Below are positions 6,305 to 27,119 of a stretch of DNA of 64,000 bases, in pieces. The notes beneath the pieces were generated by a model that searched no databases, was not told the DNA's origin, and saw only the letters and a program-made list of their open reading frames with translations. The stretch spans positions 35,729 through 99,728 of the forward strand of contig JADHYV010000067.1 in assembly GCA_027604705.1 (NCBI GenBank). The letters are read 5' to 3'. This DNA is from Allomyces arbusculus (Eukaryota > Blastocladiomycota > Blastocladiomycetes > Blastocladiales > Blastocladiaceae). Position 1 is the stretch's first letter, and each line of letters starts with the position of its first letter. The position numbers and the translations under genes were made by a program.

Positions 6305-7976
6305 ATGCTGTGCGTTGTGCCCCCGCCCGTGGCCGTCCGTGGCGCCTAGTGTGCTGATTCCGCGCGCGCCCTTGCACTCGTCATCCTCCAGTATCGGCAA
6401 CAAGTACCGCATTGGTCGCAAGATCGGGGCAGGGTCCTTTGGCGACATTTACCTCGGTACGTTCACCGTGTGCGCGCTCTTGTTCCGTGCGTCGTGCTGT
6501 GGTCCCACGTCGTCCTGACACCCCTTTGTTCTTTGCCAACCCTCACCAGGCACCAACATCATGAACGGCGAGGAAGTCGCCATCAAGCTCGAGAACGTCA
6601 AGGCCAAGCACCCGCAGCTCGAGTACGAGGCGCGCGTCTACCGCGCGTTGGCCGGCGGCGTCGGTATTCCGTTTGTGCGCTACTTTGGCACCGAGGACGA
6701 GTACAACGCTATGGTCATTGACTTGATGGGGCCGTCGCTCGAGGACCTCTTTAACTTTTGCAAGCGCAAGTTCTCGCTCAAGACCGTCTTGCTGCTCGCC
6801 GACCAGCTGGTACCGTGTCTTTCGCTCTCGCGTGGGTGTGTGGGTGGCGTCTGGCTGCGCGGTGGCGGCCCGCTCACTGATTCCTTGGTGTTCGCGCGCG
6901 CCGTTTTGCTCACGCATCTCGTTCGTGCCTGATTTTTAAATTTGTAGCTCTCGCGTGTCGAGTACATTCATTCCAAGAACTTCATCCACCGGTACGTTTC
7001 ACGCAGCAAGTGCGCGCAAGTGCGAGTGCGCGCGAGCGGCAAGGTTTCAGATGCTGGCCGTGCCGCTGGCACACCTGCCTGATCCGCTTCCGATTTGCTC
7101 ACTTCCACCGCTTTCTACTTGCGACCATATCAACAGAGACATCAAGCCCGATAACTTTCTGATGGGTCTCGGCCGCCGCGGCAACCTGGTGAATGTGATC
7201 GATTTCGGCCTCGCCAAGAAGTACCGCGACCCGCGCACGCATCTGCACATCCCCTACCGCGAGAACAAGAACCTGACGGGCACGGCGCGGTACGCGTCGA
7301 TCAACACGCACTTGGGCGTGGAGCAGTCGCGGCGCGACGATCTCGAGTCGCTGGGCTACGTGCTCATGTACTTTTGCCGCGGGTCGTTGCCGTGGCAAGG
7401 GCTGAAAGCCGCGACCAAGAAGCAAAAGTACGACCGCATCATGGAAAAGAAAATGACGACGCCGTCTGAAGTCTTGGCGCGCGGGTACCCGAACGAGTTT
7501 GCGATCTACTTGAATTATTGCCGGTCGCTGCGGTTCGACGATCGCCCGGATTACTCGTACCTGCGCCGTCTCTTCCGCGAGTTGTTTGTCCGCGAGGGTT
7601 ACAGCTACGACTATGTGTTTGACTGGACTGTGCTCAAGTTTGTGCGTATTGCCCGTGGTCGTTTGTTTGCTTTGTTTGATGACGTGTTGACCTTACCGCC
7701 GGGCTCCGTCTAGGAGTCGAGCAAGGGTGAGGGCGGTGACGCGACAGCCGGTGCGGCCGCTGACGGCGCCAACGCGGCCCTGGCGGGCCCATCGGGCAAC
7801 CCGCTGCGGGGCACGCCGCCGGGGGCGAGTACGCCGCTGAGTACGTTTTTCTTTTTTTTCCAAGCATGCGCTCTGCGACCTGTCCACTCACCATTCTCTC
7901 TCACACATTTGTAGACAACTCGGCGGGCGATCTGTCGCGGATGCCGCCAGCGCCCGCGGGTGGGCCGCGGGTCTAA
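6305..7976 (+). CDS. HRR25: Casein kinase 1, delta/epsilon (Hrr25/Hhp1) type
   Basis: Seven exons: 6305-6309, 6392-6456, 6550-6809, 6948-6991, 7137-7641, 7714-7840 and 7915-7976, giving 355 aa. The first coding exon is only 5 nt (ATG CT). Joining it to exon 2 gives a start [20 protein letters not shown], as in CK1 delta relatives. Kinase landmarks in order: glycine loop IGAGSFG, catalytic Lys in [22 protein letters not shown] (across an intron), [11 protein letters not shown] in place of the usual DFG context, and the CK1-specific [18 protein letters not shown] and [15 protein letters not shown]. The tail after [14 protein letters not shown] is short, about 65 residues rich in Gly/Ala/Pro. 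CK1 enzymes are constitutively active Ser/Thr kinases acting in trafficking, DNA repair and division. The first exon is the least certain part. Confidence 0.93.
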
Positions 7977-8648
7977 GCTTGGACTCGATCCCGGCACGCT
8001 CGGGGGCGCGACATCGCCGTCAAACTAAGATGCCAACGAGTCGGTTCACGGTGCGCTATGGTGACACGTTGCGGACGAGAGGACACGTGGGGTGGGAGAG
8101 CAACCCGTCGGGAGAGCAACCCGTCATTTGTTTTGTTGTTTTGAATCGCTCTCCTCCCATGGTCCTTCTCCCGGGACATCTATCACTTGTTTCTGTTGGA
8201 ACACACGCGTGCGGCTCGTTTTTTTTGTTGTTTGTTGTTGTGATTGGCGGTTTGGGCGGTGGGTTGCGCGGAGGCCCGGGGTGCGCGGCGATCGGTGATG
8301 AAGTTGATGAGAATGAAGTTTCTGAGCAGGATGGCTGGCTTGTGTCGCGTCCGTTGTCATTTGCGTTTGATGATTCGAGGATGTGGAAGTCGTTAGCATT
8401 TTTCATGTCGTCTTGTGCCTTCGCTGTCGCCTGTCAGCGAGAAATGCGAGCGCATACCCTAGGTTTCGTCGAGATTAACATTTGACGTGGATGCTCGTCA
8501 TGACCATCTTCTCGCGCTCATCCTCTGCAAACACTGGCAAAAACTCTTGCAAGCAACTTCATCCACGGCAGCATCAACGACGATCGACCTTGCCATTTTC
8601 CGCAACAGCTGCAACAATAACCAGCACCTGCATCTAGCTGCAACCACC
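7977..8648. other. Gene-free stretch between CK1 and the hydrolase array
   Basis: The longest open frame (7979-8485, +) has no recognisable domain and is probably chance. The right part is the upstream region of hydrolase copy 1 and includes the TGACGTGG element at 8483-8490. Confidence 0.5.
8483..8490 (+). promoter_or_regulatory. TGACGTGG element, hydrolase copy 1
   Basis: TGACGTGG lies about 160 nt upstream of the hydrolase ATG. The same octamer, with similar flanks reading roughly CGYCCRTCATNACCAT, recurs before copies 2 and 3. It resembles a CRE/bZIP site, but binding is inference. Confidence 0.45.
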
Positions 8649-9663
8649 ATGATCACGCTCCCGGTCCTCGAGGAACCCGTGCTCGCCGACTTGCCCGTCA
8701 ACGACATCCCCTCTGCCACCACCGCCGGCGTTCAAACCCGGAAGCCCATCCAACTACAAGCGCGCATCTTCCATGGCCGCGGATCCAGCAGCGCCGTCTC
8801 GCAAGACTGGGGCGTCATGTTCGTGCCCCACTCTCTCCGCACCCGCTGTTACTGCAGCTGACGGCCAACTCGACTGAACTCCAGCATTTCGCACCCGTAC
8901 GGCCGGCTCGGCGGCGACCTGCACAACAATGTCGTGCGCGAACTCTCTGCCGCAATCGCTACCCACGTCGGCATTCCCGTGCTGCGATACAATATGCGCG
9001 GCGTCAGCAAGAGTTCCGGATGGACGTCGTGGTCGGCGCACGCCGAGGCCGATGACTTGGTTGCGCTGATGCATTGGTGGTCCGCGCAAACCGGTGATTT
9101 TGTGTATCAGGATACGGGCGCGCGGGTGGCAACGTCACGGCCGACCAAGTTTATCTTGGTTGTACGCACTGCCGCATCCCGTTCTGTGTGTGCGCAATGG
9201 AGTGTATGAACTGACGAGCGACGACGACGACCTACAGGGTTACTCGTACGGCTCGCTCATCTCCCTTCCCGCCGCACGCACCTGCCCAAACGTCCACGCC
9301 CTCGTCGCGGTCTCTCCCCCCTCGCGCGTCGTCCCGCTGTTGACGGCATTCTGGTCTGGCCCGTTCGTTTCGCGCCCGCTCCCCGCAACGTTACCGAAAC
9401 TGTTTGTTTTCGGGGACCAGGACCAGTTTTCCAGCGTGCAACACATGGTGCGGTTCACGGGCACGGTCTGCGGCGTCGAGAGCGTGCCGGTCGAGACGCA
9501 CTCGAGGGAAAGTGGAGAGGATAGGACGCGCGTGCGCGCTGTGAATGGGCGCACGGTGGTGGTCCCTGGCGCTGATCATTTTTGGTTTGACGAGGAAGGC
9601 GCGGTGGTCGAGTTGGTGGTTCCGTTTGTCGCGTCGGTTGTGGAGGGGGAACATGCAACCTGA
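8649..9663 (+). CDS. Alpha/beta hydrolase, COG2945-like, array copy 1
   Basis: Frames are consistent with exons 8649-8824, 8885-9161 and 9238-9663, giving 292 aa. The second intron (9162-9237, GTACGC...CAG) is clear. The first is not: the only junction that keeps frame is GT/GCCCCA to CTCCAG, a GC-AG intron with poor consensus, so a frameshift is an alternative. Hydrolase signs: SHPYGRLGGDLHNNVV (oxyanion-loop region), VLRYNMRGVSKSSG, the nucleophile elbow GYSYGS (Ser about residue 154), acid-residue loop LFVFGDQDQFSS, and catalytic His in VPGADHFWFDEEG. COG2945-type proteins are small soluble hydrolases of unknown substrate. It is the best-preserved of four tandem copies and the only one keeping the Ser, Asp and His motifs in one nearly continuous model. 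Confidence 0.7.
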
Positions 9664-10270
9664 TTGCGCTCCCGTGTTCAGTCTCTCTCGGTCCGTCGCA
9701 AAACCAGCCACTCACATTGATTTCCTCCAAAACGTCCCCGACGGTCCCTGTCGCAGGGGACCTGCATGCTGCAGCATCGATCCCGGCGCGATCCGTTTGG
9801 GAGGACGACCCATCATGTTGAAGAAAGGGCGCACGTGTGTGCGCGCTTGACTTTGCTCGAGAATGACGAGGGCGCTGATGCGAGCACTTGGCAGCAGTAT
9901 GGCAGGGCCAGCGCCTGATCAATGCCTGATCACTCCAGGCAGTACAAGCACTCTGCGCCATGACCCACGTCCCATATCTCGACAGCAACTTGGCTAGATC
10001 GGGAGATCCAGGCCGTACCGTGCTCCTCGTGACTGTCACGGCCAGTTGCCCTATGGATGAATACCTTCACTTCTAAGAAAGCATCAACACGAATGCGCGC
10101 TTGAGCAGTTCGTCGTTTGTGCGAGAGCATGAAGTTGGGATTGGTACGTGGTATGATGTGACGTGGACGCCCATCATTGCCATCCTTCCGCGGCTTGACA
10201 TCCAGCCAACCATTCCAGTCCCCGACTTCCCTCAACAGCTGCAACAAGCCAACGCCATCTTGCTGCAATC
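9664..10270. other. Spacer between hydrolase copies 1 and 2
   Basis: The first 40-50 nt still resemble the sequence after copy 2, then similarity is lost. Unlike the later units, no Ssh4-like gene lies here. The right part contains the TGACGTGG element at 10159-10166. Confidence 0.5.
10159..10166 (+). promoter_or_regulatory. TGACGTGG element, hydrolase copy 2
   Basis: Same octamer and flanks as at 8483-8490, about 105 nt before the position matching the start codon of copy 1. It is retained although the downstream copy is broken. Confidence 0.45.
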
Positions 10271-11276
10271 ATTACGATTCTGCTCTCGGTCCTCGAGGAA
10301 CCTGTGCTCGCCGGCGTGCCCGCCGGCGGAGCGTACCCCGCCACCACAATTACCAGCAGCGCTCAAGCTCGGCAAACCGTCAAACTGCAGGCCCACATTC
10401 CACGGCTTCAGACCTAGCAGCTCTGTCCGGCAAAATTGGTGTGCCATGGCCGTGCCTCTCCACCCCCTTACACTATTTCACTGCATGCGGCTGGCGCCCA
10501 ACCCGGCCTAACCTCAGCTGTTCGCATCACTACGACCGGCTCGGCGGTGCAAAACAAAGTCGTGCGCGAACTCTCCGCCGCAATTCTGATTACGACTCAC
10601 GTTGGTATTCCCGTGCTGCGATACAGCATGCGCGGCGCGGGCAAGAGTGGCGGGTGGACGTCGTGGTCGGCGCCCACCGAGGCCGATGACTTGGTGCGGT
10701 CCACGCAAAGCGGCGAGTTTGTGGGCCGGAATACGGGGGCAAGGGTGGTGAGGTTATGGCCGTCTAAGTTCATTCTCGTCGGCCAATTGCTGGAATCCAT
10801 CCCATACGCGTGCAATGTGTTGGCCGGCACGCGATGACGACCCACAGGGTTACTCGTACGGCTCGCTCTTCTCGCTTCCCACCCCACGCACCTGTCCGAA
10901 CGTCCTCTCCCTCGTCGCGATCTTGCCACTGTCGCGCGTGATTCCGCTCCTGACGACTTTCTGGTCCGTCCATCTGCTGCCGGCAGCGTTGTCGAAACTG
11001 CTTGTTTTCGGGGATGGAGCCCGGTTTTGCAGCATGCAGCACATGGTGCGGTTCACGGGCACGGTATGTCGTATGTGGTGTCGAGAACGTGCCGGCCGAG
11101 GTGCATACCGCGGCACCGAGGGAGGGTGGGGAGGATAGGACGCGCGAGCTCGCGGTAAATGACCGAACGGTGGTCGTCCCGGGCACCGACCATTTTTGGT
11201 TCGACGGGAAAGGCACGGAGGTCGAGTTGATGGTCCCGTTTGTTGAGTCGTCGTGGAGGGGGAACATGCGGCCTGA
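10271..11276 (+). pseudogene. Alpha/beta hydrolase, array copy 2, degraded
   Basis: It aligns to copy 1 along its whole length. The start ATG is now ATT (10271). At the LGGDLHNN block about 5 nt are missing, shifting the frame. After GTVC an insertion of about 7 nt shifts it again. The acid loop reads FGDGARF instead of FGDQDQF, losing the second Asp. GYSYGS is kept (spliced exon beginning at about 10851) and so is VPGTDHFWFDGKG. An in-frame TGA at 11274-11276 matches the copy 1 stop. With a lost start, two frameshifts and a changed acid residue it is very probably non-functional. Confidence 0.75.
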
Positions 11277-11345
11277 CTCTGCTCACTTTGTCGGTCCAAA
11301 TCGGCCCCGTTGCAATCTGCTCTCTTTTTACATTATGATTCCTCT

Positions 11346-12260
11346 TCACGACCATCTCGTTGACGACCCGGTCTTCGTGCTGTACGGCGGTGGTGGAGCT
11401 CCGTCCTCGTCCTGTTCCTCATCTTTGGGCGGCGCCAACGTCGCTGGCGACGGCACACCCGCTGCATCCACCAGCATGTACCCTGACCCGGTCTCGCTCG
11501 ACTCGGTCCACCGCCACCACTGCACTTTTCCCCGTTGCTCACACAGACCCTCCACTTCAGTTGTCGCCGACGCGTCCGTGGCAATCCACCGTACTTGCCC
11601 GCCGTCACACGTTCGTACGTACTCATCCTCGCGCTCATTCACGACCGTGGGCACCACCGTGCGCGGCAGCCTCCACGCGCACGCGCGGCGCGCACCCACC
11701 CTCTCCTCTCTCGCCCAGCGCGCACGAACCGCCTCCACCCATGTCCAACTCCACACCCACGCTACCACCGCCCACCACGCGCGCCTCGCCCACTCATCCC
11801 AAGTCGCCACTGGGTCCGCTTCTTCCAACTTCACTTTGATCACGATTCCCGCCAGAAATAGCCCAAACACGATAAGCGGACTCAGTACTCCGATCCAGAG
11901 TGCCGCGTCCGCGAACGGGTTCTGCGGGATGGGAGGGCATGTTGGGCCATAGTAGATGGCGTTTTCGTGAGGCGGGGAGATGGTGATGAACGTGCAGTTG
12001 CGCAGCGCATCGGGCGAGGTGGGCGCGGCAGCGATTGACTTGCGGTCCCAGTACCCGGGCGCACCGGTCGGGCCGATGAGGGGGTGCGCGGGGGAACCTG
12101 TCGGGGGAAGGGGGGTGTTGGTTGGGATAGCGGAGGTGGGTTGCATGGGTGTGAATCAGTGGGGTTGGAACGAACCGAAGATGCGTGAGTCCCACGACTC
12201 GAGGTCGGGGTCGCGTGCGGTCAAGTGCGCTGCTGCGGCATCGCTGGTTGGGGACGCCAT
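11346..12260 (-). CDS. Short Ssh4/Ear1-like membrane protein with PPxY, array copy 1 (no SPRY core)
   Basis: Two exons: 12260-12176 and 12097-11346, with a 78-nt phase 1 intron (donor GTTCGT), giving 278 aa. The N-terminal part has GSPAHPLIGPTGAPGYWDR and an NCT glycosylation sequon, with a second Cys in GPTCPP. One membrane segment follows (LSPLIVFGLFLAGIVIKV). The cytosolic part has WDEWARRAWWAV, then VQWWRWTESSETGSGYML, and ends with PPPPY about 14 residues from the C-terminus. The full-length relative at 25713-27119 has the same intron, the same blocks and the same PY motif, but also about 180 residues of SPRY domain that are absent here. In yeast, Ssh4/Ear1 recruit the Rsp5 ubiquitin ligase to membrane cargo through PPxY; that role here is inference. 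It converges on hydrolase copy 2. Confidence 0.8.
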
Positions 12261-12410
12261 GGTGCAAAACGACGCGCGCTTTGGCTTCTTGACTGCTCGC
12301 GAGCTTGGTTGGGAAGTATCGATGGTGTTTTTTTCTGATGACAGGCGTGGACCGTGGTCCGAATGGACCGCTGATTCAAAGAGAGCGACAACCAGCGCCC
12401 GCGTCCTGGG

Positions 12411-12423
12411 TATATCTATGAGC
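12411..12423 (-). promoter_or_regulatory. GCTCATAGATATA promoter element of Ssh4-like copy 1
   Basis: Minus strand reads GCTCATAGATATA, about 150 nt upstream of the ATG. It is TATA-like, and its GCTCATA core recurs before every member of this family in the window. Confidence 0.55.
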
Positions 12424-12463
12424 GACTCGCACATGCCGCCCTTTCAAGACGTGCCTCAACGCC

Positions 12464-12612
12464 GGCTGCATGGCATGGGCAGCACCTCTACCAGGCTTCA
12501 TCGCTCAACATCAAAACGGCACTAGTCCCTGGGCACGTTACATAGAGCTCAGGAAGGCGCTGCTGCGGCGGGCTGTGTGCCCTGGACGCGTTGTTCTCGC
12601 TGCGAAAGCGGA
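12464..12612. repeat. Conserved intergenic block, copy A1
   Basis: Begins GGCTGCATGGCATGGGCAGC and continues with similarity through about 150 nt to blocks at 14944 and 16661. It lies beyond the Ssh4-like promoter. No frame is preserved among the copies, so it is treated as noncoding repeat-unit DNA. Confidence 0.75.
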
Positions 12613-13107
12613 TCACTGGCCGCGCGACATGCTCGACCACGTCACCTCGACAACGATCTGGTATAAATCACAACATGAGCACGCAACCTAAGATGGCATC
12701 TGTAATCAATGACACTTGGTCTTAACGACCGTAAGTTGCCCAAGACGTGTGAAAGCATCAACAAAGTATCGACTGGACTGCGCGTCTGTGCTCGTGCGGA
12801 TAGCGTTCTTGCCGTTCCTGCCGCGCCGGTGTGCGCTGCAGTTCCCATCTGCCCCGAATGAGGATAGTCCGACACGTCGCGTCTTTTACAGGTCTGTTTG
12901 CTTCGTTCGTGCGAGAGGATACCGAGCAGGAAAGAAAATACCCCCTGCAACTCTGTGACGTGGTCGCCCGTCATCACCATCCTTGCGTAGTTCACCACAC
13001 TCCACCTTCCCAACTGCAGCGTTATCGCTTCATCACCTCCACCCAGCACAATTCCCGACTTCCCTCACTCGTTGCAACAATTCCCAACACCATCTTGCTG
13101 CATCAAC
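12613..13107. other. Spacer before hydrolase copy 3
   Basis: About 500 nt without a credible gene. The right half matches the region upstream of hydrolase copies 1 and 2, including TGACGTGG at 12956-12963 and a shared stretch around ACTTCCCTCA. Confidence 0.5.
12956..12963 (+). promoter_or_regulatory. TGACGTGG element, hydrolase copy 3
   Basis: Third occurrence of the octamer, about 145 nt upstream of the ATG of copy 3, with the flank TCGCCCGTCATCACCATCCT matching the copy 2 flank. Confidence 0.45.
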
Positions 13108-13747
13108 ATGTTTTTGCTCTTGGTCCTCGCAGAGTTCATGCTGGCTGACCTGCCCGCCGCTGCCGTCCCCGCCGCCACCACAACCGCGGCATCCAAGTCC
13201 ATCAAAGAATCAAGCTGCATGCATGCGCGTCGGACCCAGTAGCACCGTCCCGGAAAAAAAGGACGTCCTGCTCTTCACCTGCCTCGCTCGACTCTCGCCA
13301 GTGCCTCGCTCCGTTGCGGCTGTCGGGCAACCGCCCGGCCCATGCGAGCCAGCTTGGCGGCGACCTGCACAACAATGCCGCGTGCGAATTCGCCGCCGCG
13401 ATTGCGACGCACTGTGTGTGTCCGTGCTGGGCGTGGGCAAGAGTGACGAGTGGCCGGCGCCCATCGAGGCAGCAGATGTGATGAGTGGTCGGTAGCAGAG
13501 TGGACTGGATCCAGGGGCGAATGGTGGAGAGGGCTTAGTATGTGGCGTCAAGAACGTGCCGGTCGAAACGCACTCCGCGGCATCGAGGTAGGGTGGAGAG
13601 GAGAGGATGTGCGTTCACGCGGTCAATGGCTGAGCGGTTGTCGCCCTGGGCGCCGACCACTTTGGTTCGACGAGGAGGAGGAGGCGGTGGCCGAGTTATA
13701 ATGATCCCGTTTATCCAGTCGGGCGTGAAGGGGAACATGGGATTTGA
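13108..13747 (+). pseudogene. Alpha/beta hydrolase, array copy 3, internally deleted
   Basis: It keeps an ATG, a QLGGDLHNNA block and the start of the next region, then jumps directly to the block matching GVKNVPVETHS and a degraded LGADHF. The piece holding the nucleophile elbow GYSYGS and the acid loop, several hundred nt, is missing. In-frame stops follow the VKNVPVETHSAAS segment. It is a relic. Confidence 0.75.
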
Positions 13748-13815
13748 TTCCTGCTCACTGTCGGTCCATATCAGCCCCATTGCAAACTGTTCTCATTTCA
13801 CAACACGATGCTTCT

Positions 13816-14692
13816 TCACGACCATCTCGCTGACGACCCCACCGTGTACGGCGGCGGTGCGCCGTCCTTGTCGTGTTCCTCGTTCCTACATTTTTCGTCG
13901 TCGGGCGGCGCCAGCGCTGCGGGCGCCGGTCCATGCGCGTCTGCCATATCCACCAGCATGTATCCGGACCCGTTCTCGTTCGCCGTCCACTGCCACCACT
14001 GCACATTGCCCCGTTGCTCATTCTCGCTCTCCGTGACCGCTGACGCATGCGCATCCGGCACGGAGATCCACCTCACCTGCGCACCATTATCCACCTGCAC
14101 ATTTTCACCCGTGGGGTCATCCACGACCGTGCGCTCCACCCTCCTCACCCTCGGCACGCGCGCACGGAACGCACTCACCCATCTCCAGCTCCACACCCAC
14201 CGCGACACCGCCCTCCAGGCGCGCCTTGCCCAGCCGCTCCACGTCACTTGCGGCTCCGCATTCAACTTATCCTTGATCGCGAAAACGCCCAGAAACAGCC
14301 CAAACACGACAAACGGCGCCAACAGTCCGAACCAGAATCCCGGGTCGGCGAATGGGTTGCGCGGTGCGGGCGGACACGTCGGACCATAGTAAATGGCCGT
14401 GTCGTGCGTTGGCGTGAGCGTAATAAACGTGCAGTTGCGCAGGGCGTCTGCGGAAGAGGGTGCGGCGGCAATTGACGCGCGGTCCCAGTACCCGGGCGCG
14501 CCGGTTGGGCCTATGAGAGGGTGGGCGGGGGAGCCTGGCGCGATCATGAAAGAGCGGCGCATCGCGTCAATGCATGCGTGTCGGACAGGCGCAGAGGTGC
14601 GGGAACGGACCGAAAACGTCAGCGCCCCACGAGTCGAGGCCGCGTGCGGTCAACTGCGCGGCATTGTCAGTGTCGCTGGTCGGGGACACCAT
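13816..14692 (-). CDS. Short Ssh4/Ear1-like membrane protein with PPxY, array copy 2
   Basis: Two exons: 14692-14611 and 14534-13816, with a 76-nt phase 1 intron (donor GTCCGT), giving 266 aa. It has the same order as copy 1: LTARGLDSWGADVF in exon 1, GSPAHPLIGPTGAPGYWDR, NCT sequon, Cys in GPTCPP, membrane segment (LLAPFVVFGLFLGVFAIK), WARRAWRAVSRWVWSWRW, NVQWWQWTANENGSGYML, and PPPY near the C-terminus. The SPRY core is absent at the same place as in copy 1. The reading frame is intact, so it is probably a live gene. It converges on hydrolase copy 3. Confidence 0.8.
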
Positions 14693-14885
14693 GGAGCGAG
14701 GCGATGCGGTCGACACGACGCTCTTGGTATTTGACTCTGCAGGCCGAGCGTGCACGACGTGATTTGGCTCCTTGACAGCTTGAGCTGAGAGTAGTTGCGA
14801 ATGATGGGATTGCCTGCTGCTCTGGCCTGGACCGTAGTCCGGGCGGGCCTTGATGTCAGGAGAGCGACAACCAGCGCCCTCGCTC

Positions 14886-14898
14886 GATATCTATGAGC
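14886..14898 (-). promoter_or_regulatory. GCTCATAGATATC promoter element of Ssh4-like copy 2
   Basis: Minus strand reads GCTCATAGATATC, about 190 nt upstream of the ATG and preceded by the same GGAGAGCGACAACCAGCGCC context as copy 1. Confidence 0.5.
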
Positions 14899-14943
14899 AG
14901 CCGGCGTGCCGAAGTCACGAACTCGTTAAGACCATGTCAACGC

Positions 14944-15100
14944 GGCTGCATGGCATGGGCAGCACCTCAACCAGGAGCTTCGTCGCCACCCGACAAAAAC
15001 ATCGTATGTCCCTGGGCACGCTCCAGCTTCAGGACGGTGCTGCTGCGGAGGGCGGCGCGCTTGGACGCGCTGTTGTCTCTGGAGAACTGCGCGGGCGGCC
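14944..15100. repeat. Conserved intergenic block, copy A2
   Basis: Begins GGCTGCATGGCATGGGCAGC, identical to A1 over its first 20+ nt, and stays similar through the GGTGCTGCTGCGGAGGG segment. Confidence 0.75.
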
Positions 15101-15320
15101 AGTACCTATCCTGACGCGAACTTGACACCGCAGGCTATTGTTCGCTCACGCGACCTTTCTATTGCCTGGGTGGACACACGCACGTTTTCCAGCTGTTGAT
15201 GGCCAGCTCGAACGCCGTTTCCCTGTGCCTCGTCTGGAGCGACGCAATGACGCATTGTGTCCATGGATGGCGCCATGCAGGCTTCCCAGTTTCCCGCCCT
15301 CGAACAAACTGGGATCAAAA

Positions 15321-15436
15321 GTGGGTAGAGAGGGGAGGACGTGTGTGGGCGCCGTGAATAAATGGACAGTGGTCGTGCTGGATGCCTCCTAATTTTTGGA
15401 TTGAAGAGGAGGGGTTGGTCGATGGCGGTCCTGTAA
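15321..15436 (+). pseudogene. Alpha/beta hydrolase, array copy 4, 3' remnant only
   Basis: Only the C-terminal block survives: a region matching RTRVRAVNGRTVVVPGADHF of copy 1 reads CVGAVNKWTVVVLDAS and then, in another frame, NFWIEEEGLV. No nucleophile region is left. Confidence 0.55.
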
Positions 15437-15462
15437 CACACGACCAGATTGCTTTCACCTTT

Positions 15463-16393
15463 TCAATGTATTGGTCCCTGTATCCAATCCCAAAGGTTCC
15501 CATTTTCACTCCATGGCTTTTTCTCACGCCCATCTCGGTGACGCACCTCTGCATTGTACGGCGGTGGAGCGCGGTCCACGTCCTGCTCGTCATCCGTGGG
15601 CGACGCCAACGTCGCAGGCTCTGGCCCGCCCTTATCGCTCTGTGCTGTTTCCACCAGCACGTACCCGGACCCAGTCCCGTCCGGCGCGGTCCACCACCAT
15701 CGCCGCCACCACTGCTTTTTGTCCCGTTGCTCATGCGGGCCCTCGCTTTCCGTGACCACCGATGCATCCGCAGTCGGCCTGGCGCTCCGCCACACCTTTC
15801 CACCAAAACACGTCCGCACATGCTCGCCCCTGCCCACCGCCGAATCGCGTTCCATGCTCACTTTCCTCGCCACCCGCGCCCAGAGTTTGCAAGTCCGGCT
15901 CCCCACCCACTTGCTGGCCGCCCTCCACGCACGCCTTGTCCACCTGCCCAAGGTCACATGCGGCTCTACATCCATGAGAAGCTTGATCATGAGCCCCGCC
16001 AGAAACAGGCCAAACACGACAATCAGGCCCACCAGTCCTTTTCATAGTTCCGGGTAGGCCAGCGGGTTGCGTGGTGCGGGCGGAAATGTCGGGCCGTAGT
16101 AGATGGCCGTGTCGTGGCTGGGAGTGAGCGTGATGAATGTGCAGTTGCGCACCTCATCGGGCGAAGTGGGCGCGGCAGCAATCGACTCACGGTCCCAGTA
16201 CCCAGGCGCGCCGTTCGGGCCGATGAGGGGGTGAGCAGGGGAGCCTGGCGGTGGAGTGGTGCGGTGAGGGTGATGAGCGTCGGGAGAAGGAATGTGAGGA
16301 TGTGGGACGGTCGGACCGAAGATGTCAGTCCCACGACTCGAGGCCGCGCGCGGTCAAGTCCGTGGCGGCAGAGCCGCCAGTCGGGGACGTCAT
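15463..16393 (-). pseudogene. Short Ssh4/Ear1-like protein, array copy 3, disrupted
   Basis: Exon 1 starts at 16393 and matches the other copies (MTSPTGG..., LTARGLESWD), but about 2 nt are missing just before the splice site (near 16325), putting a TGA in frame. Exon 2 (about 16247-15463) keeps GSPAHPLIGPNGAPGYWDR, the NCT sequon, the membrane segment and APPPY. A second lesion is a TGA at 16044-16042, where copies 1 and 2 have a Trp codon at the start of the membrane segment. The C-terminal tail after PPPY is longer than in the intact copies. Two independent lesions make function unlikely. Confidence 0.8.
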
Positions 16394-16603
16394 GGCGACA
16401 CGCGACACGGTCTGGTGGACAGGACGGTCTTGGTGCTCGGATCTGTGGCTTGGTAGTGCAGGACGTGCTTGGGCCGCTTGACAGCCAGTGAGAGTGGCTG
16501 CGAAATATCGATTGTGATTTTTGCTGGTACGACGGACCTGAACAGCGGTCCGAGCGCGTCATTGATTCAAGGAGAGCGACAGCGAAAGTCGTCGCATCCT
16601 GGA

Positions 16604-16613
16604 CATATATGAG
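16604..16613 (-). promoter_or_regulatory. GCTCATATAT promoter element of Ssh4-like copy 3
   Basis: Minus strand reads GCTCATATATG, about 215 nt upstream of the disrupted copy, with the GGAGAGCGACA context conserved. Confidence 0.5.
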
Positions 16614-16660
16614 CTACCACCGCGCAGCGCTCCAAAGTCGCGCCTTCTTCTCAGGACGCA

Positions 16661-16820
16661 CGGCAGTGGCATGGCATGGGCACCTCAGCCGCTCCATCGC
16701 CAAACGACAAAATGGCACCAGTCCCTGGGCGTCTTACAACTTCACGAGGGCGCTGCTGCGGAGGGCGACGCGTGTGCGCTGGGACGCGCTGTTCTCGTTG
16801 GGGAACCTGCAGGCGGCAGG
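16661..16820. repeat. Conserved intergenic block, copy A3
   Basis: Begins GTGGCATGGCATGGG and follows A1/A2 through CCAGTCCCTGGGCG and GGCGCTGCTGCGGAGGG. Further similarity to the region after A2 continues to about 17000 (TCTGGAGCGACG shared with 15232-15243), marking the right end of the array. Confidence 0.7.
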
Positions 16821-25712: not shown

Positions 25713-27119
25713 ATGGCATCCCCGTCCGGCGACACGCCCACGGCTGCGCGATTGATTGCCCGCGGCGTCGATTCGTGGGACGCCGACACTTTTGGTCCGT
25801 TTTTGAATGTTATTGCGCTCCACACCTGTCTGGCGCGCAGACTGACACTGCCCCTCTGTTTCGCGATAGGCTCGCCCAGCAAACCTCTCATCGGTCCTGC
25901 GGGTGTGCCCGGATACTGGGACCGCGCCTCGATCGCCGCGAGCGACAATGCACCACCCGGCGCGATTCGCAACTGCACGTTCGTGACGTACTCGTCGACG
26001 ACACGCAACACCACCATGTACTTTGGGGCCTCATGCCCGTTCTCGCCGCATAAACCGTTCGGCGACTCACCTTGGGTCGAGGCCGTCGTGGGCGTTGCTC
26101 TCTCCCTTGCCGGGTGTGCTCTTGTCATTGGCTGTTTCGTGGTCAAGAGCAAGCTGGAGCGGGAACCCGATGTCACCATGCAAGAATGGGCGCGGCGCGC
26201 CTGGGCCGCGGTTGCAAAGTGGGTGCGGATGCGGGCGTCCAAGGAAGGGCGGGTGGAGCTCGCTCTCTCGGCGCGTGGGGACAAGTACATGCGCGCGCAC
26301 CCGCAGAATGAGGTGGAGTGGACGCCCGCGCTGATCGCGTCGCTCATGGACGTGTCGGTGCTCACGGAAATGGATATCCCGCCCGAAAATCTGGACAAGG
26401 TGCAGGTCGCACGCGGGGAGATAGAGACCCGGATCGAATTTTTCCCGCAGCGCCGTGTCGTGCCGTCGCCCAAGTGCCACGAGCGGGCGCGCAATGGTGA
26501 TGTGGTCGTGTTCACCAAGCTGCCGATCCCCTGGGTGCCCCCATCTGTCGTGGCGCCTGACATTTTACGGCACTTTCTTTACTTCGAGCTTTCCATCACC
26601 GCCTTGGCGCCTTCCACCACTGTCGCCGTCGGTCTCGCTCGTCGCCCGTTCCCGCCCTTCCGACTTCCCGGGCGAAACGCTGGGTCGATTGGATACCACT
26701 CGTCCTCTGGGCTCGTGCACAACCGCCAGTCGGAACCTGCCTTCTTCTATTGGCTTCCCAGGACTAGTCATGCGTTGCAGTACGGCCTGGGGGATGTGGT
26801 TGGGGTCGGGGTCTCTGGGGGGAAAGTGTATTTCGCGCACAATGGCGAGCTCGCGTTGGTGCAGGAAATGATGGCAGAGCCGGGCATGCATGTCGCGATT
26901 GGCGCGACAGGGCCGTGCACGGTCAGCTTGCATTGGCACGGGCCGTGGCGTTGGAGCGAGGCGAACGAGAAGGGGTACAATTATGTGCACGAAAACGGAT
27001 CGCAGCTGCTCGCGAGCGAGCAGGAGCCTGCATCGCTAGGACCGCTCAAAGATGGTGAAGATGCCCCACCGCCGTATAGCCGGGAAGCTGAGTCGTCGTC
27101 GTTCTCGAGGCGACCTTGA
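25713..27119 (+). CDS. SSH4: Ssh4/Ear1-like membrane protein: TM + SPRY + PPxY
   Basis: Two exons: 25713-25794 and 25870-27119, with a 75-nt phase 1 intron, giving 443 aa. It has an N-terminal segment with an NCT sequon and two Cys (residues about 28-90), one membrane helix at about 97-119, a basic cytosolic linker, and a SPRY domain at about 265-390. SPRY signs include LYFELSI, VGLARRPFPPFRLPG, SIGYHSSSGLVHN and LGDVVGVGVSGGKVYF. PPPY is at 427-430. The order TM-SPRY-PPxY is that of yeast Ssh4 and Ear1, adaptors that bring Rsp5 to endosomal or vacuolar membrane proteins; the PPPFRLPG...SIGYHS block is the most diagnostic part. It is the parent-type gene of the SPRY-less copies at 11-16 kb. 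A further intron before the SPRY domain (about 26530-26580) cannot be excluded. Confidence 0.85.
   Translation: MASPSGDTPTAARLIARGVDSWDADTFGPFLNVIALHTCLARRLTLPLCFAIGSPSKPLIGPAGVPGYWDRASIAASDNAPPGAIRNCTFVTYSSTTRNTTMYFGASCPFSPHKPFGDSPWVEAVVGVALSLAGCALVIGCFVVKSKLEREPDVTMQEWARRAWAAVAKWVRMRASKEGRVELALSARGDKYMRAHPQNEVEWTPALIASLMDVSVLTEMDIPPENLDKVQVARGEIETRIEFFPQRRVVPSPKCHERARNGDVVVFTKLPIPWVPPSVVAPDILRHFLYFELSITALAPSTTVAVGLARRPFPPFRLPGRNAGSIGYHSSSGLVHNRQSEPAFFYWLPRTSHALQYGLGDVVGVGVSGGKVYFAHNGELALVQEMMAEPGMHVAIGATGPCTVSLHWHGPWRWSEANEKGYNYVHENGSQLLASEQEPASLGPLKDGEDAPPPYSREAESSSFSRRP

Follow-up and report, generated by a model that had tools for sequence, protein, structure and literature searches.

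Candidate SPRY-less paralogues of a membrane-anchored ubiquitin ligase adaptor in a tandem gene array of Allomyces arbusculus

The Ear1 and Ssh4 proteins consist of an ectodomain, a transmembrane segment (TM), a SPRY domain, and a PY motif, in this order. According to the accessible part of PMC2810449, they are endosomal membrane adaptors of the Rsp5 ligase with SPRY domains, and PPxY or LPxY motifs are recognized by the WW domains of Rsp5. The window analyzed here is a stretch of 64,000 nucleotides of the Allomyces arbusculus genome (C67:35729–99728; guanine–cytosine content 62.7%; the genome comprises 25.9 Mb in 197 contigs). It contains a tandem array of three minus-strand genes at 11.3–16.4 kb, S1 (ATG at 12260, stop at 11346), S2 (14692–13816), and S3 (ATG at 16393, end at 15463), as well as their SPRY-bearing relative F67 on the plus strand (25713–27119). 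The coordinates and the strand of the array agree with those given in an earlier reading of this DNA made from the sequence alone (hereafter, the sequence-only reading). The order of parts known from Ear1 and Ssh4 is present in F67 and, less fully, in its paralogues; S1 and S2 share the ectodomain, the TM, and the PY motif and differ by the absence of SPRY. In our judgment, the chances are even that S1 and S2, as SPRY-less paralogues of an anchored adaptor of a WW-HECT (Rsp5/Nedd4-type) ligase, are working genes whose products choose cargo by the ectodomain or the TM.

The sequence-only reading described the array genes as SPRY-less paralogues of an Ssh4/Ear1-type adaptor. SPRY was detected in F67 and four paralogues, whereas S1 and S2 are not accepted as members of that type because SPRY was looked for in them and not found. 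S1 and S2 are better described as descendants of an Ssh4/Ear1-like protein, with the kinship resting on architecture. NDFIP1 and NDFIP2 are PY-motif membrane adaptors of Nedd4/Rsp5, and Pfam holds models of both NDFIP and Rcr. Compared with the known topology of NDFIP1/2, Sna3, and Bsd2, S1 and S2 differ by a single hydrophobic stretch, an ectodomain with a Cys pair, and the lack of a Pfam match. Commissureless (Comm), PRRG4, and Rcr1-2 are, like S1 and S2, short TM proteins with PY motifs; however, no sequence relation to them was found, as neither S1 nor S2 matched any Pfam family at E values up to 1, and unlike them, S1 and S2 appear to have arisen from a SPRY protein. As far as the accessible part of PMC5578492 goes, Comm directs Robo to degradation, signal sequences are missing from Comm and two PRRG proteins, and the outside part of Comm lacks Cys, whereas S1 and S2 carry the Cys pair there. 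Bsd2 and Sna3 are named as PY-motif adaptors of Rsp5 in the accessible part of PMC9105457. With a predicted anchor, a PY motif, and no other recognized domain, S1 and S2 fit the layout of small TM adaptors of this kind. No description of a SPRY-less Ssh4/Ear1 paralogue was found in a literature search covering mostly papers available without subscription; so far as this search reached, S1 and S2 would represent a previously unreported form of membrane PY adaptor.

A phase-1 intron (GT..AG) occupies the identical place in S1, S2, S3 (72 nt), and F67, as the sequence-only reading had described; the other lengths are listed in Table 1. The GSPxxPLIGPxGxPGYWDR block, the NCT sequon, the hydrophobic stretch, and PPPY, also described there, were found in all four genes. 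Exon 2 of S1–S3 follows a short exon 1 and opens with a GSPAHPLIGPxGAPGYWDR block. Between the array copies, identity is 0.78–0.81 in exon 1 and 0.40–0.56 in the intron (region borders are approximate by a few bases), and this excess supports the exon–intron model. By reading, the paralogue at C3:828143 likewise has a phase-1 intron at this place, with a GTAAGG donor. The F67 intron is in frame and free of stops, therefore the unspliced frame is open too, and intron retention would put 25 extra residues before the ectodomain block. The TM is predicted from hydropathy only, the 19-residue maximum being 2.61 in S1 (from residue 69), 2.48 in S2 (residue 69), and 2.53 in F67 (residue 74). The sequon lies N-terminal of the TM and lysines lie on its C-terminal side; PPPY follows at exon-2 residue 236 in S1 and 227 in S2. 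A Trp-rich juxtamembrane segment, AWWAVVAWVWSWTWV in S1 and AWRAVSRWVWSWRWV in S2, is longer than that of F67 and is perhaps an in-plane helix.

In the alignment, S1–S3 lack the 180 residues that correspond to residues 180–359 of F67 exon 2, including the whole SPRY domain; this gap upholds the earlier claim that about 180 residues were lost with SPRY while the anchor and PPPY were retained. The Pfam SPRY match of F67 covers residues 290–379 of the unspliced frame (exon-2 residues 238–327) with 27.4 bits, barely above the cut-off of 26.3. When a family profile of seven sequences, S1 and S2 included, was compared with the PDB, the nearest solved SPRY domains were those of SPRYD3 (E 1.2e-15) and RanBP10/9 (E 8.4e-15 to 2.6e-13), the match spanning the SPRY part only and not the TM or PY motif. 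The AlphaFold model of F67 is poor (mean predicted local distance difference test score 46.1), as is that of S2 (43.6); the top fold matches of the F67 model are the SPRY domains of RanBP10 and RanBP9 (E 5.2e-9). The flank C-terminal of the gap aligns with F67 with a score of 91 for S1 and 60 for S2 (shuffle means 26.8 and 26.3; none of 2000 shuffles as good in either case). The flank preceding the gap scored 46 for S1 (shuffle mean 18.6; 0 of 2000), and for S2 alone no match above chance was found there (1278 of 2000 shuffles as good). No counterpart of SPRY above shuffles was detected in the translated frames of S1 (356 of 500 as good) or S2 (497 of 500). Since F67-like sequence flanks both sides of the gap, SPRY appears to have been lost in the short copies, and its absence is most plainly read as a deletion from the interior of a single exon. 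A hidden SPRY exon in an intron or another frame was rejected, because the SPRY of F67 lies inside one open exon, the short frames run continuously through the junction, and the genome-wide SPRY search listed no match on C67, although this search missed the weak SPRY of F67 and hence is not exhaustive. The idea that the SPRY-less form is ancestral was rejected as well, given that both flanks of the gap are homologous to F67 and that SPRY is present in five members, among them deep paralogues located on C2 and C74.

Exon 2 is open over 250 codons in S1 and 239 codons in S2, with a synonymous divergence of about 0.74 changes per site. The ratio of nonsynonymous to synonymous changes (dN/dS, omega) is 0.33 for the S1–S2 pair (bootstrap 0.23–0.46), so that copies 1 and 2 pass the check for a ratio below 1 suggested by the sequence-only reading; it is 0.34 for S1–S3 and 0.49 for S2–S3, and two shifted forward frames taken as a control gave 1.04–1.96. 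Branch omegas from a codon model (star tree with S1, S2, S3, and F67; 235 columns) were 0.19 for S1 (p 3e-7 versus 1), 0.39 for S2 (p 0.015), and 0.42 for S3 (p 0.004). In its own frame, exon 2 of the three copies is stop-free and has an omega of 0.30 (twice the log-likelihood difference, 2dlnL, 70.6); the three upstream blocks of the array, used as a control, gave 0.85–1.27 in all six frames (2dlnL ≤ 1.2). The frames of S1 and S2 are intact, and their ratios indicate purifying selection. The group of S1, S2, and S3 is separated from the other six members of the family with ultrafast bootstrap support of 100% on exon 2 and 83% on the first 130 residues of this exon. S1 and S2 have the loss in common and group with S3, which places the selection on the SPRY-less form, except if SPRY was lost separately in the copies or sequence was exchanged between them.

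The claim of three equal copies stands for S1 and S2 and fails for S3. In this broken gene, exon 1 carries a 2-nt frameshift, the TM is interrupted by an in-frame TGA (16044–16042), and Phe replaces the ectodomain Cys. These defects may stem from an assembly error. Relaxation of S3 relative to the other branches is not significant (p 0.15), which suggests that S3 broke late.

Constraint is distributed unevenly along the protein. When F67 is included, the ectodomain (64 columns) has an omega of 0.13, the TM/juxtamembrane part (52 columns) 0.31, the linker (54 columns) 0.25, and the tail (65 columns) 0.45; for S1, S2, and S3 together, the values are 0.09, 0.38, 0.31, and 0.43. In the comparison of S1 and S2 alone, omega is 0.07 in the ectodomain (2dlnL versus 1, 51.2), 0.29 in the TM/juxtamembrane part (7.3), and 0.31 in the PPPY tail (9.2). 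Judged by these values, constraint is strongest in the ectodomain. A comparison of its approximately 55 residues with solved structures gave no convincing match (one hit, E 0.062).

Relatives were gathered by protein searches and with a nucleotide pattern for GPxGxxGYW; as the exact motif is needed, the counts are lower bounds. The search for the ectodomain block, proposed in the sequence-only reading for this organism and its relatives, was run in this genome and revealed at least nine members. The pattern occurs at ten places, the nine members and C107:1865, and a backward-read control pattern at none; C107:1865 was judged a chance occurrence, since nothing further of the block follows. The GPxGxxGYW core is kept in all nine members, with SPRY absent in four and the PY motif in two. 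SPRY above the Pfam cut-off was found in F67 and four paralogues. Both modules are present in F67 (PPPY), C74:4348 (LPAY), C74:7219 (LPPY), and C2:413861 (LPTY), and S1, S2, and the broken S3 have the PY motif without SPRY. The converse loss is seen in C3:828143 (frame 1644–2861 of its local region), a full-length paralogue with a SPRY match of 34 bits and no PPxY or LPxY anywhere in exon 2. C74:9894–10427, the third tandem gene on C74, has an ectodomain and a TM preceded by an acidic stretch (178 codons of exon 2), with neither SPRY nor an in-frame PY motif. The modules are missing in different combinations: SPRY and PY in C74:9894, SPRY alone in S1–S3, and PY alone in C3:828143, so the loss of SPRY is not unique to S1–S3. 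C74:9894 groups with the C74/C2 members at 100% in both trees, and this implies at least two losses of SPRY if its reading frame is complete. Comparisons of its ectodomain are near saturation. About 170 nt past its stop, PPPPY stands beside a run of C in another frame (frame 7679–8473 of the local region); we read it as chance, a spliced exon being less likely. By eye, signal-peptide-like, Ser/Gly-rich reading frames lie upstream of the C74 members and C2.

As the sequence comparisons show, about 180 residues including SPRY were lost from an ancestor with an ectodomain, TM, SPRY, and C-terminal PPPY, and the resulting form occurs in three tandem copies, two of which have stayed intact under purifying selection. 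A possible scenario is as follows. S1 and S2 would lie in the plasma membrane or an endomembrane with the N-terminus out and the C-terminus in, the flanking charges pointing to a cytosolic PPPY. This motif, retained in S1, S2, S3, and F67, would be bound by the WW domains of a genome-encoded WW-HECT ligase; WW and HECT matches lie on one strand within about 2 kb in at least two loci of the genome, C2:673258–675225 (three WW) and C2:813340–811765 (two WW). Together with the anchor, PPPY makes recruitment of such a ligase by S1 and S2 plausible. Cargo would be chosen through the ectodomain or the TM instead of SPRY, and cargo held by lateral contact would receive ubiquitin and be sent to the vacuole. 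Such a mechanism would be akin to that of Rcr1, Commissureless/PRRG4, or NDFIP, and an Ssh4/Ear1-like protein would have arrived at it by losing a domain. In the accessible part of a later review (PMC9105457), the cargo Smf1 is noted as a non-dependent case, which we list among the corrections to the sequence-only reading.

A number of observations weigh against this scenario. PPxY is a short motif, so WW binding of S1 and S2 is only putative, and some activities of Comm and Rcr1 are reported as ligase-independent in the accessible part of PMC5578492. C74:9894 has neither SPRY nor an in-frame PY motif, and hence SPRY can be lost outside an adaptor role. The donors of the array and F67 introns are unusual (GTTCGT, GTCCGT, and GTCCGA), and the broken S3 indicates that the array is not wholly maintained. 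The branch test for S2 is modest (p 0.015), and the S1–S2 linker does not reject an omega of 1 (0.49, 2dlnL 2.3). Overall identity between copies is 0.72–0.74 in exon 2, 0.69–0.70 in the upstream blocks, and 0.74 in the 3' flank of S1/S2; because the flanks are nearly as similar as exon 2, identity alone cannot show a signal at the protein level. Ratios for single frames also need care: reverse frame -1 of exon 2, with stops, gave an omega of 0.38, which we read as a mirror of the codon pattern, and the first and second upstream blocks, with stops, gave pairwise values of 0.39 (frame +1) and 0.42 (frame -1), the other two pairs giving 0.55, 0.92, 0.73, and 0.97 in these frames.

Loss of SPRY with retention of the TM and PPPY would also fit a decoy or buffer, in which S1 and S2 tie up the ligase's WW domains at a membrane without presenting cargo and so damp F67 and the other SPRY adaptors; PY adaptors are described as competitors for Rsp5 in the accessible part of PMC9105457. 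For this, an anchor and a PY motif would suffice, but constraint is strongest in the ectodomain (S1–S2 omega 0.07 versus 0.31 in the tail), which argues for ectodomain-directed ligase recruitment rather than a bare decoy. A decoy that uses its ectodomain for placement is compatible with the data, as the tail is constrained too. We regard a decoy role as unlikely; of the options offered by the sequence-only reading, the third, a cargo specificity of their own, is favored over the decoy by the ectodomain constraint. It is very improbable that S1 and S2 have, like S3, no function today and are recent pseudogenes or duplicates under drift. S3 is broken, the hydrolase copies in the array have decayed, and the three copies are about equally distant, but S1 and S2 have kept their frames open at the synonymous divergence given above, and an omega of 1 is rejected on both branches.

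Alternatively, the ectodomain may itself be the main function, as part of a surface or lumenal protein serving adhesion, matrix, or sensing, with the cytosolic SPRY and PY modules only regulating the protein's own turnover and being freely lost. The universal GPxGxxGYW core amid patchy SPRY and PY, the low S1–S2 omega of the ectodomain, and the signal-peptide-like frames upstream of the C74 members and C2 agree with this explanation. However, PPPY is kept in S1–S3 despite a diverging tail, the S1–S2 tail rejects an omega of 1, five members retain a SPRY above the cut-off, and the ectodomain is short and lacks a convincing structural match. We consider this explanation unlikely, though less so than a decoy.

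Table 1. Positions of the array genes, F67, and neighboring elements in the window.
Feature	Positions	Strand	Remarks
S1 exon 1	12176–12260	-	MASPTSDAAAAHLTARDPDLESWDSRIF plus first base of Gly; signal peptide not evident by eye
S1 phase-1 intron	12098–12175	-	78 nt, GTTCGT..CAG
S1 exon 2	11346–12097	-	Ectodomain with NCT, TM, Trp-rich juxtamembrane segment, tail with PPPY; no SPRY; intact
S2 exon 1	14611–14692	-	MVSPTSDTDNAAQLTARGLDSWGADVF plus first base of Gly
S2 phase-1 intron	14535–14610	-	76 nt, GTCCGT..CAG
S2 exon 2	13816–14534	-	Parts as in S1; PPPY; no SPRY; intact
S3, third SPRY-less copy	15463–16393	-	Broken; PPPY codons remain
F67 exon 1	25713–25794	+	Exon 1 of the SPRY-bearing relative
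F67 intron	25795–25869	+	75 nt, GTCCGT..TAG
F67 exon 2	25870–27119	+	Ectodomain, TM, SPRY (exon-2 residues 238–327), PPPY at residue 400
Second hydrolase-like copy	10227–11284	+	72% identical to 8597–9671; convergent with S1
Three remnants of third hydrolase copy	13073–13739	+	368 of 1075 bp of first copy matched
Upstream block of array units	12275–12602	-	About 70% identical; others at about 14694–15087 and 16464–16800

An alpha/beta-hydrolase-like gene is located at 8597–9671, and the Pfam match of one of its frames is under the cut-off (18.5 versus 26.3 bits). Copies of this gene are interleaved with the short genes, and such a decaying neighbor provides a yardstick. The upstream blocks of the array units are more alike than the introns and show no consistent coding signal; they are possibly shared promoters. 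Elsewhere in the genome, two loci (C7:515350–516887 and C15:369892–371433) have a rhodopsin match beside a same-strand match to guanylate cyclase, with further guanylate cyclase matches at other places. Rhodopsin–guanylate cyclase fusions are reported for Blastocladiomycota, Sanchytriomycota, and four orders of Chytridiomycota in the accessible part of PMC9616733, and the two loci accordingly point to a zoosporic fungus.

The mode of substrate recognition by adaptors of the Ear1/Ssh4 type was an open question as of 2009, according to the accessible part of PMC2810449. We tentatively suggest, as a possibility on the unlikely side, that the family is built around the ectodomain of about 55 residues, its cytosolic modules being lost piecemeal, and that S1 and S2 are a new class of ectodomain-directed ligase recruiters, in which an outside ligand or partner would select the membrane protein to be ubiquitylated. 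This one genome offers a natural series consisting of the full form, the SPRY-less form with a PY motif, the SPRY form without a PY motif, and a form with only the ectodomain and the TM.

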